64,000 bases of DNA. It comes from Onchidella celtica. Lineage: Eukaryota; Mollusca; Gastropoda; Systellommatophora; Onchidiidae. This document shows, piece by piece, positions 20,348 through 40,004 of the stretch (positions are counted from its first letter, which is position 1; each line of letters starts with the position of its first letter). The notes beneath the pieces were generated by a model. That model saw only the letters and a program-made list of their open reading frames with translations, ran no database searches and was not told where the DNA came from. The stretch is from assembly GCA_963931925.1 (NCBI GenBank), contig OZ007567.1, positions 89,012,998 to 89,076,997 of the forward strand. The letters run 5' to 3'. The position numbers and the translations under genes are program-made.

Positions 20348-21035
20348 GATAAAGCTACACACTGGTCTGCTAAGCAAAGTATGGATTCAGCATCTGTGAT
20401 AACCAGGCAAGAAACCAGTGGTAACTATGGCAAAGATACAAAAATAGCGTCTACAACCCCAGAAGTAAGAGGTGGCCAGTATGGTTCTTTTGCTGGGGTC
20501 CCTTCAATTCAAGGCACAGGTGCCAGATCAAAAGTTCATAATTGCGAACTAGACAATTTCATAGACAAAGATTTTAGAGTAGGAAGACACCAATCAGATG
20601 ATCAGTCAGTGGCAAGTAGAGATAAATATGATGGGGGTAACAGATTCAGAGGTAAATGCAGCAATCTTGAGATTCAAATTCTACAAGAAGACATCACCAA
20701 GCTTCGGGTAGATGCAATCGTTAATGCAGCAAACAGACAATTGCAGCACAATGCTGGTGTTGCAAAGGTCATTGCACAAGCAGCTGGAAGACGGCTTGTA
20801 GAAGATTGCAAGGAATTCATCAATAAAGGAGATGAACTCGGTGTAACTGAAGTGTTTGTGTCCTCTGGGGGAGATCTTCCAGCCAAAGATGTGCTGCATG
20901 CTGTTGGGCCTAAATGGAAAAATTACACTGACAAAGAGCAGTGTAGACATGATTTGAGGTGGACAGTTCTACGATGTCTTATCGAAGCAGTCAAACTGGG
21001 TGCATCTTCATTGGCCTTGCCCTCCATCAGTGCAG
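20348..21035 (+). CDS. Exon with N-terminal half of the macro domain
   Basis: The frame is open from the gap edge; the first Met is at 20381, but the exon may begin inside the gap. The first ~97 residues are polar and low in complexity. Then [20 protein letters not shown] starts a macro domain with the NAAN loop, a HNAGVAKVI helix and a [16 protein letters not shown] strand. The loop that is usually Gly-Gly-Gly in hydrolytic macro domains is Asn-Ala-Gly here, so ADP-ribose binding is more secure than hydrolysis. The donor GTAAG follows 21035 in phase 1. Confidence 0.9.
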
Positions 21036-39000: not shown

Positions 39001-40004
39001 AAAGGGAAAAATACAATAGTTATTTTTCAGTTCTATTTCTTTGGTGAAGGGTCGGTAAGGTTCGTAAAAATTACTCATAAAAGGAGTGAAAGACTTGGTG
39101 CAGAATGGACAGGAAAACAGAATAACCCAGGAAAAATTCATCTCAGCCAGAGATAGCCTTCAGCATAGCATTTCTGAGTGTGAAGGCATATTACACATAT
39201 GATTATGTGCATCAGATTTCACATTGGTATTTCCCATTACTCCTATAAAACAGATTATACTTCATTCATTGCTTATGCGGTACTATAAATAATATTATAA
39301 TCTTCATCTCCATCTCTCTCTTATTATGTCCTTTCAAATGAAGTCTTGAGTTACAACTTAATTTGCAAAGGAATCTCTAACCAGGCCTGTCTCCTTCTTC
39401 TAAACCAACAGTAAATGCTCCTTTAATGGTAAGAAATGTCAGTGAACATTGACTTCAACCCCCATGCTGGTTCTCAGGTGGTGCCAGAACTTGAAAACTG
39501 ATTTTTATTACTCTTATTAAATCATTATTTTCCTTATGTTTGTCTTTGATTTATAATAAAATCTGAGAATGGTGACAAATATGAATTCATTCACTGGCAA
39601 TGATTATGTAAAAAAATTGAAAACATGACAAATCTCATAAAGCATGTCATAGCATGTCATAAAACATCACCCTTCTACTAGGTGTAGACAGACCATATAG
39701 ATTTATTTTCATTCCAGTGCCAATAAAACAGGAGCAACAAAGGACTGATCTTTGGTTGCACAGAAATAAAAGTCTTGCACTCTCTGTGCTCACCCTCAAG
39801 ACATACTGCAAATATAATTTTATACATACATGTATGTACATTTTGATTTGTTCTTCTTCCAGCCACGGTTACCCAGACCCAGGGTACATACAAAATGTCA
39901 TTATGGAAATAGCTAACAAGGGAGTGAGATTTGAGAATGCAACAGAAAAGGAAAAAGCAGACATCAAGGACTTTGCAAGGAGGGTTAAATCATCCAAGTA
40001 TTAA
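20348..40004 (+). CDS. Macro-domain RING-Deltex (DTX3L-like) E3 ubiquitin ligase gene
   Basis: Eleven exons are visible: 20348-21035 (open into the gap), 23914-24621, 26287-26508, 27234-27308, 28363-28425, 29547-29615, 30550-30633, 31631-31714, 37536-37813, 38626-38837 and 39863-40004. All introns are GT..AG and phases match throughout. The exons sum to 2,625 nt (874 residues plus stop). Residue order: macro domain from about 98, continued by exon 2; an unrecognised region to about 540; a Ser/Arg/Gly linker of about 125 residues; RING near 675; DTC from about 710 to the end. Deltex ligases use RING-DTC to transfer ubiquitin and, with NAD+, to link ADP-ribose to ubiquitin; macro domains bind or remove ADP-ribose. 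An ADP-ribose-directed ubiquitin ligase is therefore inferred. In mammals these activities are split between PARP9 and DTX3L. N-terminal exons are missing upstream. A possible extra exon at 36213 was not included. Confidence 0.85.
21181..21297. repeat. CT microsatellite
   Basis: A nearly uninterrupted TCTC tract of about 115 bp with a few CCC and TTT breaks. It lies in the single-copy spacer, so it is not part of the inverted repeat. Confidence 0.95.
21845..23780 (-). mobile_element. 5'-truncated LINE with RT and RNase H (right copy)
   Basis: Mirror of 18115-20050, in antisense orientation within the intron that splits the macro domain. It encodes the same RT half with the YADD catalytic motif, RNase H and terminal zinc motif, with the same frameshifts. 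It is not expected to be active. Because it is intronic and antisense it need not disturb splicing of the host gene. Confidence 0.8.
23914..24621 (+). CDS. Exon 2: macro C-terminus and unknown conserved region
   Basis: A 708-nt phase-1 to phase-1 exon. Its first ~60 residues complete the macro domain ([12 protein letters not shown], then [13 protein letters not shown], where family members have a strand-helix). A basic, Cys-rich stretch follows, then from about codon 125 a region with [23 protein letters not shown] and QFQA that I cannot name. The broken paralogue at 59652-59966 keeps this second part best, suggesting a genuine domain, perhaps KH- or RRM-like as proposed for other PARP/DTX3L proteins (inference). 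Confidence 0.88.
25205..25355. repeat. Hairpin and CT microsatellite (right copy)
   Basis: Mirror of 16540-16690: the 11-bp inverted repeat TATAGCGCCTA/TAGGCGCTATA at 25224-25263 followed by a CT-rich tract. Confidence 0.6.
25510..25792 (-). repeat. SINE-like repeat (right copy)
   Basis: Mirror of 16103-16385, antisense in the intron between exons 2 and 3. It has the same tentative A-box and B-box-like segments and an AATTTT-repeat tail. Confidence 0.4.
26287..26508 (+). CDS. Exon 3: unknown alpha/beta-like segment
   Basis: A 222-nt phase-1 exon encoding 74 residues ([20 protein letters not shown], then [19 protein letters not shown]). Alternating helix- and strand-like stretches suggest a small folded domain, but I recognise no family. 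The acceptor is AAATACAG and the donor GTGAG. Confidence 0.8.
27234..27308 (+). CDS. Linker exon 4 (Arg/Pro/Ser-rich)
   Basis: A 75-nt phase-1 exon with an [20 protein letters not shown] composition. It opens a series of five small exons, each a multiple of three and ending in an Ala/Ser-Gly codon split by the intron, so any could be skipped without a frameshift. Confidence 0.75.
28363..28425 (+). CDS. Linker exon 5 (Gly/Ser/Tyr-rich)
   Basis: A 63-nt phase-1 exon with [14 protein letters not shown] and a YGSYSG end. The acceptor is GCTTGACCAG and the donor GTACTC. The sequence is probably disordered. Confidence 0.72.
29547..29615 (+). CDS. Linker exon 6
   Basis: A 69-nt phase-1 exon encoding [16 protein letters not shown] and ending in DDNYSG. 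It shares its DDNY(S/A)G end with exon 7. The acceptor is GTGTCCCAG and the donor GTAATA. Confidence 0.72.
30011..30103. repeat. 93-bp imperfect palindrome (right copy)
   Basis: Mirror of 11792-11884, within the intron between linker exons 6 and 7. The central ACCACGGTGGT is perfectly palindromic. Confidence 0.55.
30550..30633 (+). CDS. Linker exon 7, half of a duplicated pair
   Basis: An 84-nt phase-1 exon encoding [20 protein letters not shown] and then an acidic DDVDDNYAG end. It matches exon 8 in length and pattern, with similar flanking intron sequence, so it arose by tandem duplication. Confidence 0.78.
31631..31714 (+). CDS. Linker exon 8, half of a duplicated pair
   Basis: An 84-nt phase-1 exon encoding [20 protein letters not shown] and a DDGGDDFAG end. 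Basic Ser/Arg-rich first half, acidic second half, as in exon 7. The donor GTAAAA lies about 100 bp before the fold-back element. Confidence 0.78.
31823..34426. mobile_element. Fold-back DNA element with CCGG target duplication
   Basis: The ends are TGTAGCAGGCC and GGCCTGTTACA, flanked on both sides by CCGG. The terminal ~170 bp of each end is a nest of palindromes (TATACCCC/GGGGTATA, CTGGCCTAGCCCAGAATAT). Further in, the two halves pair for about another kilobase with divergence (AAGTCAAGACC, ATCAGATATCATA, TTGATATACAAAAG occur in opposite orientation). The copy of the target repeat at 36136-36170 reads through CCGG without an insert. No transposase is seen, so the element is non-autonomous. 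The superfamily is not recognised. Confidence 0.75.
36621..36638. repeat. Short palindrome TTGCACG-G-GCGTGCAA (right copy)
   Basis: Mirror of 5257-5274, in a locally GC-rich patch of the intron before the RING exon. No function is assigned. Confidence 0.5.
37536..37813 (+). CDS. RING finger and start of DTC domain
   Basis: A 278-nt exon after an excellent polypyrimidine-TTCAG acceptor, phase 1 to phase 0. RING ligands in order: CPIC, then Pro-Cys-Cys-Lys-Asn-Ser-Ile-Cys, CRFC and CPFC. In Deltex-type RINGs the position two after the fourth Cys is normally His (Cys-Lys-His); here it is Asn. The exon ends with [12 protein letters not shown] and GIQK, the opening of the Deltex C-terminal domain, which abuts the RING as in DTX proteins. 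Confidence 0.92.
38626..38837 (+). CDS. DTC-domain core exon
   Basis: A 212-nt exon, phase 0 to phase 2. It encodes [18 protein letters not shown], a Leu-rich helix, [10 protein letters not shown] and [18 protein letters not shown]. These are hallmark DTC motifs; the HHKT histidines lie in the pocket that binds NAD+/ADP-ribose in studied Deltex proteins (family knowledge). No lesion is seen. Confidence 0.93.
39863..40004 (+). CDS. Final exon: DTC C-terminus and stop
   Basis: A 142-nt exon after CTTCTTCCAG, entering in phase 2. It encodes [20 protein letters not shown], the closing DTC helix, then a Lys/Arg-rich tail and TAA at 40002-40004. A possible polyadenylation signal AATAAA lies at about 40487. 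Confidence 0.92.

Follow-up and report, generated by a model that had tools for sequence, protein, structure and literature searches.

A predicted single-chain macro, RING and Deltex C-terminal protein in the gastropod Onchidella celtica, a probable relative of the PARP9-DTX3L pair

Here we analyse a stretch of 64,000 nucleotides from the genome of the gastropod Onchidella celtica (contig OZ007567.1, hereafter C1; the window, C1:89012998-89076997, denotes this whole stretch), in which a gene that we call P1 appears to join a macro domain, a RING and a Deltex C-terminal (DTC) domain in one chain, and which lies in a cluster of relatives (P2 to P5) spanning approximately 340 kb. Exon borders of P1 were re-derived independently from the letters, and the model proposed in an earlier, sequence-only reading was reproduced exactly: its eleven exons keep phase over ten introns, each bounded by GT..AG (10/10), and form a frame of 874 open codons to the stop (Table 1). 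The 874-residue product given in that reading is correct in sequence and lacks its N-terminus, because exon 1 is interrupted by a 200-N scaffold gap. The upstream part of this exon can be read in an identical copy at C1:89093796, where the frame is open from C1:89090562 for 1307 codons to the exon-1 donor. In this frame an N-terminal stub is followed by some 40 copies of a charged repeat of 20 residues, after which come a tentatively KH-like block, a linker and the first macro half. P1 contains no stop and no frame break, and retains all splice sites, both catalytic residues of the DTC domain and the eight cysteines of the RING.

The macro and DTC content of P1 was borne out by Pfam searches of the 874-residue product, in which both domains score well above their cut-offs: the macro domain spans residues 125-240 (E 2.6e-28) and the DTC domain (PF18102) residues 720-849 (E 8e-47, profile positions 2-133 of 133). 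The putative RING stands directly ahead of the DTC domain and follows the pattern C-x2-C-x10-C-C-x4-C-x2-C-x8-C-x2-C, the eight cysteines of which are invariant in all four family members compared; it is composed of cysteines only, the histidine of the C3HC4 type being absent. No Pfam RING model matched the spliced product up to E 10, and the RING exon frame alone gave a match to zf-C3HC4_3 (E 0.0056) under its cut-off. When the family profile was compared with RING structures, TRIM32 was found at E 8e-4 and NOT4, a C4C4 RING, weakly at E 0.085. Neither a WWE domain nor an RRM was found by Pfam in the 874-residue product or the 1320-residue exon-1 frame, nor was an ADP-ribosyltransferase (ART, the PARP catalytic domain) found in the product or in the longer exon 1; searches with the middle region (exons 2-3) gave no assignment. 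Pfam matches to Phage_TAC_3 and a ZFAND2 zinc finger fell under their cut-offs and were set aside.

A likeness to PARP9 and DTX3L had been proposed for P1, and comparison with solved structures agrees with it, the macro domain being closest to macrodomain 1 of PARP14 and PARP9 and the DTC domain to DTX3L. The best macro entries are PARP14 3q6z (88.9 bits) and PARP9 9qyd (86.3 bits, presumably also macrodomain 1), together with PARP14 3vfq; the PARP14 and PARP9 entries come ahead of bacterial MacroD-type proteins, MACROD1/2, macroH2A and further PARP14 macrodomain entries, and the macro domain of P3 has the identical top three. Passages of PMC10221186 identify 3q6z as macrodomain 1, and list as needed for hydrolase activity Asn or Ser together with Gly at loop 1, and a hydrophobic and an aromatic residue at loop 2. 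P1 has Asn and Gly at the first of these loops and Ile-Phe (AIF) at the second, in agreement with that description; glycines of its loops are replaced (HNAGVA, SISAAIFKVP), and P3 reads HGGGVA. For the DTC domain, the best structure match of P1 is DTX3L 3pg6 (134.5 bits), and the family profile ranks DTX3L (143.3 bits) above DTX2 (128.9) and DTX1 (115.4). According to passages of PMC10810221, a histidine and a glutamate of this domain are catalytic for the ubiquitylation of ADP-ribose (H582/E608 in DTX2, H707/E733 in DTX3L). Both are present in P1 by alignment; among the four members, the histidine occurs in P1 only, being replaced by Tyr in P2 and by Pro in P3 and P5.

That macro domain and RING-DTC belong to a single gene was tested against a division into two between window positions 31714 and 37536, such that one gene, with the macro domain and KH-like block, would end after exon 8 and an adjoining DTX3-like gene would begin at an ATG heading exon 9. 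At the level of sequence, the single gene withstood this comparison, with P5 as the most direct witness. The end of P5 exon 3 reads GCC-G|GTAAGT, and the P5 RING exon, which lacks a leading ATG, starts TTTTTTTCTAG|CA-CAA, both in phase 1 across an intron of 1,702 bases; the joined middle region, exon 3 and RING are open if exon 3 starts at ACAAG|CC, and closed with the next AG. Because exon 3 of P5 is thus predicted to splice in phase to the RING exon, the middle region and the RING-DTC would form one gene in the family, and since in P1 the second macro half shares exon 2 with the middle region and the join of exons 1 and 2 falls inside the macro fold, the macro domain is tied to the RING-DTC as well. 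The same exon order is kept on one strand in P2 and P3. Weighing against a single gene are the presence of this ATG in three of the four members (P1, P2 and P3), a P1 frame that is open upstream of exon 9 for 125 codons (to 37163), the 5.8 kb length of intron 8 with its 10 AATAAA matches, and the broken exon-9 acceptor of P2. The upstream open frame, however, is not conserved: ahead of the aligned start it covers 25 codons in P2 and 8 in P3. We therefore regard two adjoining genes as quite unlikely, and a macro-RING-DTC combination in a single gene as having good support from the sequence.

Genome searches (1.14 Gb, 43 contigs) place most relatives of P1 beside it. Of eight DTC matches, six fall in C1:89.016-89.361 Mb, three of them being copies of P1, while two are exons of a gene on contig C10; the C1 cluster also holds the five strongest of 20 macro matches, and none of the 20 genome-wide ART matches listed falls in its 89.0-89.4 Mb interval. 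All four relatives are on the minus strand. P2 (aligned exons 89170462 to 89144977) aligns over all 11 exons of P1 with 868 codons and no stops, and is damaged at the exon-9 acceptor (CCG), by a frame break in the repeat array and by the loss of 2 bases near its end. P3 (89301837-89277867) has exons 1, 2, 3, 9 and 10 in order at 44-60% identity and an exon-11-like piece 10 kb further on, the linker exons 4-8 not being found at E 0.001. In P4 (89237799-89231801), an open macro exon frame of 973 residues is followed by a frame break in exon 2 and, downstream, only by an exon-11-like remnant with a stop (89213266, E 0.08). An exon-2 relative within the window (Table 1) breaks frame at about the same place, and either decay or a small extra intron may account for both. 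P5 (89366724-89360486, 6.2 kb) consists of the stub and middle region in one frame, followed by exon 3, a RING exon and a DTC exon; no match to the macro domain or KH-like block was found in the 20 kb searched, nor did the stretch examined show an exon 11.

With losses in all four other members (acceptor, repeat array and catalytic histidine in P2, histidine in P3 and P5, exon 2 frame in P4, and a macro domain not found in P5), the cluster could be in birth-and-death turnover and P1 itself a decaying or recently dead copy. The comparison of P1 with P2 bears on both sides of this question. Replacement (Ka) and silent (Ks) divergence are 0.072 and 0.106, and the overall Ka/Ks of 0.68 would be in keeping with decay. 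Replacements make up approximately 139 of the 195 changes, where 78% would be expected (crude binomial p 0.024). By region, Ka/Ks is 0.34 in the macro domain, 1.08 in the middle region and 0.59 in the DTC domain (crude binomial test of its replacements, p 0.12). The macro domain has fewer replacements than expected (18/32, crude binomial p 0.008), which argues against decay, as do the intact frame, splice sites, DTC catalytic residues and RING cysteines of P1 and the fact that its 1307-codon exon-1 frame remains open throughout the repeat array. That P1 is a pseudogene thus appears unlikely.

A further consideration is the state of the assembly, in which probably redundant contigs inflate the gene copy counts. 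Window 60-20147 is the reverse complement of 21748-41828 at 99.5%, with zero mismatches over window 1002-20147 (19,146 bases), and the mirror, which the sequence-only reading does not mention, stops at the 200-N gap. The mirrored exons 2-11 (10/10 identical) are most likely to represent a redundant contig rather than a second gene; a true inverted gene pair in the left third of the window was considered less likely, given 19,146 bases without a mismatch. The contig after the gap (C1:89033345-89112642) starts and finishes with an identical 18,847 bases, the next contig opens with a reverse copy of the preceding contig's middle (25.8 kb, 99.996%), and the 294 kb examined contain no gaps other than window 20148-20347 and C1:89112643-89112842. 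P1 accordingly appears three times, each time incomplete: on the minus strand of the window (exons 2-11), on its plus strand (exon 1 cut), and at C1:89093796-89112642 (complete in exon 1, lacking exon 11). Allelic or redundant contigs scaffolded side by side would be the simplest reading, and P1 is probably one locus per haplotype. The near identity of the 25.8 kb of neighbouring sequence weighs against rating an inverted pair as less likely, a rating that is favoured by the contrast with other neighbouring redundant sequence of the same contigs, which is 98.47% identical over 6,486 columns (1.5% difference) and differs in addition by a long terminal repeat (LTR) element. It might further be argued that the gene, or its fusion, was created by misjoined contigs, as could be suggested by a mirror that is free of mismatches for 19 kb and by a middle contig with identical 18,847-base ends. 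However, a single contig carries exons 1-11 with no gap, the diverged P2 and P3 show the same exon order, and redundancy alters the copy number, not the exon chain, which renders an assembly artefact highly improbable.

Table 1. Features of the P1 locus in window coordinates
Feature	Position	Strand	Content
200-N scaffold gap	20148..20347	strandless	removes 5' part of exon 1
Exon 1, visible part	20348..21035	+	linker and first macro half (macro from ~20663)
Exon 2	23914..24621	+	second macro half (to ~24065), linker, start of middle region
Exon 3	26287..26508	+	remainder of middle region
Exon 4	27234..27308	+	Ser/Pro/Arg-rich linker; kept in P2
Exon 5	28363..28425	+	linker; kept in P2
Exon 6	29547..29615	+	linker; kept in P2
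Exon 7	30550..30633	+	linker
Exon 8	31631..31714	+	linker
Exon 9	37536..37813	+	RING with eight cysteines (37568-37675) and DTC start
Exon 10	38626..38837	+	DTC core; His at 38809-38811, aligned to H582 of DTX2 and H707 of DTX3L
Exon 11	39863..40004	+	DTC end; Glu aligned to E608 of DTX2 and E733 of DTX3L; tail, stop
Mirror of exons 2-11	1891..17981	-	10/10 exons identical; most likely a redundant contig
Exon 2 relative	59246..59960	+	macro end and middle region; frame broken close to the position of the P4 break

Upstream of the macro domain, the repeat array of P1 (C1:89090811-89093216; L010:3814-6219) consists of forty 60-bp units read in frame as a charged 20-residue repeat. It is short and frame-broken in P2, and linkers unlike it occupy its place in P3, P4 and P5. 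The stub is similar in P1, P3, P4 and P5 and is also present in P2; since in the former four it begins after CAG|TTC behind a pyrimidine stretch, a further 5' exon probably exists, and comparison of the flanks of P1-P4 found no such upstream exon. The block between repeats and macro domain was modelled from four family members, giving a predicted local distance difference test (pLDDT) score of 79.0 and a predicted template modelling (pTM) score of 0.74. With this model, the first 19 rows returned by Foldseek are pre-ribosome or small nucleolar ribonucleoprotein entries, with 3.4e-3 as the lowest E (prob 0.98), and the KH2 domain of FUBP1 is at rank 29. Krr1 is named in two of these 19 titles, and the chains of the 19 rows would be Dim2/PNO1 and Krr1, both tandem-KH proteins. 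Because every row lies above E 0.001, with TM-scores near 0.4, and VIA-align gives Z <8 with mixed folds, the designation of this block as KH-like is tentative.

Repetition of other kinds is found across the locus. Exons 7 and 8 with their surroundings are 74.7% alike over 178 columns, and on account of this likeness are probably a local duplication. In intron 1, minus-strand frames at window 21811-23830 resemble by eye a non-LTR reverse transcriptase/RNase H, and an interspersed repeat family, 76-88% alike, occupies window 31894-34431 (intron 8) and 60262-62433 (near the right end). An LTR element of 7.8 kb, of Gypsy type by eye, lies at window 46300-54103, flanked by a 5-bp target duplication (CACAT) and nested in what is by eye an apparent non-LTR element (~44500-46299 and 54104-55253); because its 1181-base LTRs are 100% identical and the neighbouring contig has the empty site (C1:89138657-89138701), its insertion appears recent and polymorphic. 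Elsewhere in the assembly, C43:5154-9485 (L035) is mitochondrial, one strand carrying a COX3-like frame and the other an ND2-like frame and COX1 (COX3 and ND2 assigned by eye). The COX1 frame uses TGA as sense 8 times and AGA/AGG 7 times, a usage in agreement with an invertebrate and at odds with a vertebrate.

P1 has in common with human PARP9-DTX3L, considered together with PARP14, a macro domain of the macrodomain 1 (MD1) type, tentatively KH-like sequence, a putative RING and a DTC domain. In humans, however, PARP9 and DTX3L are two partner proteins of the antiviral response, bound via their KH-like domains, PARP9 having two macrodomains and an inactive ART, whereas in P1, a single chain with a large repeat array and a Cys-only RING, one macro domain is recognised and no ART was found. 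A C-terminal RING-DTC, tentatively KH-like sequence upstream (for DTX3L, in passages of PMC11080071 and PMC13224862) and the catalytic His and Glu make P1 similar to DTX3L, for which the same passages of PMC13224862 give no macro domain and an N-terminal RRM, and passages of PMC8424196 a RING with one histidine; against the RRM and five KH-like domains ahead of the RING of DTX3L, P1 offers a single KH-like block with weak model support, and no RRM by Pfam. PARP14 shares with P1 the macrodomain 1 type and, tentatively, KH, and differs by its three macrodomains, WWE and ART, and by the lack of RING and DTC. DTX1/2/4 and Drosophila Deltex share the RING-DTC, their N-terminal WWE domains (passages of PMC8424196) being a point of difference; in the tree, the DTC domain of the separate C10 gene is nearer DTX1/2 (90/96, under the 95/80 mark). 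We also observed, at C7:57282500-57289499 (L032), a PARP14-like intronless stretch with a frame of 1505 residues that contains acidic repeats, a macro domain, a PARP catalytic domain and weak KH_PARP14 matches under cut-off; similar macro and PARP matches occur elsewhere on C7.

The relationship among the vertebrate proteins gives this comparison its context. In passages of PMC13224862 and PMC11251020, PARP9 and DTX3L jointly have a PARP14-like domain make-up, apart from the RING and DTC, the genes share one locus in which PARP9 and DTX3L have a bidirectional promoter, and the proteins make contact via KH domains. Passages of PMC10221186 restrict PARP9 to jawed vertebrates and place PARP14 in cnidarians, molluscs and vertebrates, while according to passages of PMC10955461 the conservation of DTX3L across model organisms is mostly in the RING-DTC. 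In Aplysia, a transcript annotated as DTX3L is placed by passages of PMC8195618 in a module of antiviral orthologues. Among the literature matches listed, no title or abstract opening describes a macro-RING-DTC single chain, and an earlier description is possible.

Relatives were also sought among bacteria and archaea (84,980 species) and in viral contigs with short peptide patterns, in a scan that was not exhaustive. The bacterial and archaeal scan gave 48 pattern matches and two loci related to DTC, both in Endozoicomonas, bacteria that live with marine animals; among the viral contigs, 55 pattern matches of this non-exhaustive scan yielded no relative. In E. cretensis, an open reading frame of 1040 residues (L036:2352-5474) encodes a DTC domain (E 7.3e-53) and a macro domain in two stretches (E 4.2e-15) in one chain, while that of E. 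elysicola (L037:4971-5531) encodes DTC only. The join of macro and DTC is therefore not unique to P1. The E. cretensis protein differs from that of P1 by its uninterrupted frame and the absence of a RING by Pfam, and because its DTC domain groups weakly with human DTX3L (80/89) it is likely of separate origin, perhaps acquired from a host. A literature search linking Endozoicomonas and deltex found nothing.

The sequence-only reading had left a choice between an ancestral and a convergent protein and, while its single gene with macro, RING and DTC is supported by the sequence, this choice may fall either way. In the DTC tree, the family forms its own group (90/94) and is not grouped with DTX3L, none of the seven inner branches reaching 95/80; the macro tree has long branches, is unstable and decides nothing. 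Even chances may be given to the macro domain having joined a DTX3L-like gene late, by convergent fusion, rather than being the remnant of an ancestral fused protein. In its favour, P5 has a stub, middle region and RING-DTC with neither macro domain nor KH-like block in the 20 kb searched, human DTX3L also lacks a macro domain in passages of PMC13224862, and the bacterial protein indicates that macro and DTC can be joined more than once. However, a loss in P5 would be no less simple an explanation than a gain in the other members, and the macro domain is of the very type, macrodomain 1 of PARP14/PARP9, found in the vertebrate partners of DTX3L. At the other end, we raise as a rather doubtful speculation that P1 is a living example of the one-protein type from which vertebrate PARP9-DTX3L-PARP14 arose by splitting and partial duplication, with the macro domain editing from within the chain, by removing or selecting ADP-ribose ahead of its ubiquitylation by the DTC domain, and with pathogen pressure driving the turnover of copies.

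On the exon chain, the macro and DTC domains, the RING cysteines, the catalytic residues and the single-gene layout of the paralogues, we consider it probable that P1 is one gene encoding a single-chain relative of the PARP9-DTX3L pair minus the ADP-ribosyltransferase, acting as a reader or eraser of ADP-ribose and an ADP-ribose-ubiquitylating E3. Its chain would run from stub and some 40 charged repeats through KH-like block, MD1-type macro domain, middle region and Ser/Pro/Arg linker to RING and DTC. From the residues present, the macro domain would be expected to recognise, and perhaps hydrolyse, mono-ADP-ribose on a target, the RING to recruit a charged E2, and the DTC domain to bind ADP-ribose and pass ubiquitin to it or to the target, while the KH-like block and repeats may gather partners or further copies into an assembly. 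A role in innate immunity may also be envisaged, with which local duplication, copy decay and the Ka/Ks of 0.68 fit but which they do not show.

In humans, the reading of ADP-ribose falls to PARP9 and PARP14 and the writing of ubiquitin on it to DTX3L, and how the two are coordinated is poorly understood, according to passages of PMC13224862. A natural single chain would allow the coupling of the two activities to be tested directly in one protein, for which the neighbour P5, in which no macro domain was found, provides a comparison from nature, and such a chain would show a link between macrodomains and Deltex outside jawed vertebrates.

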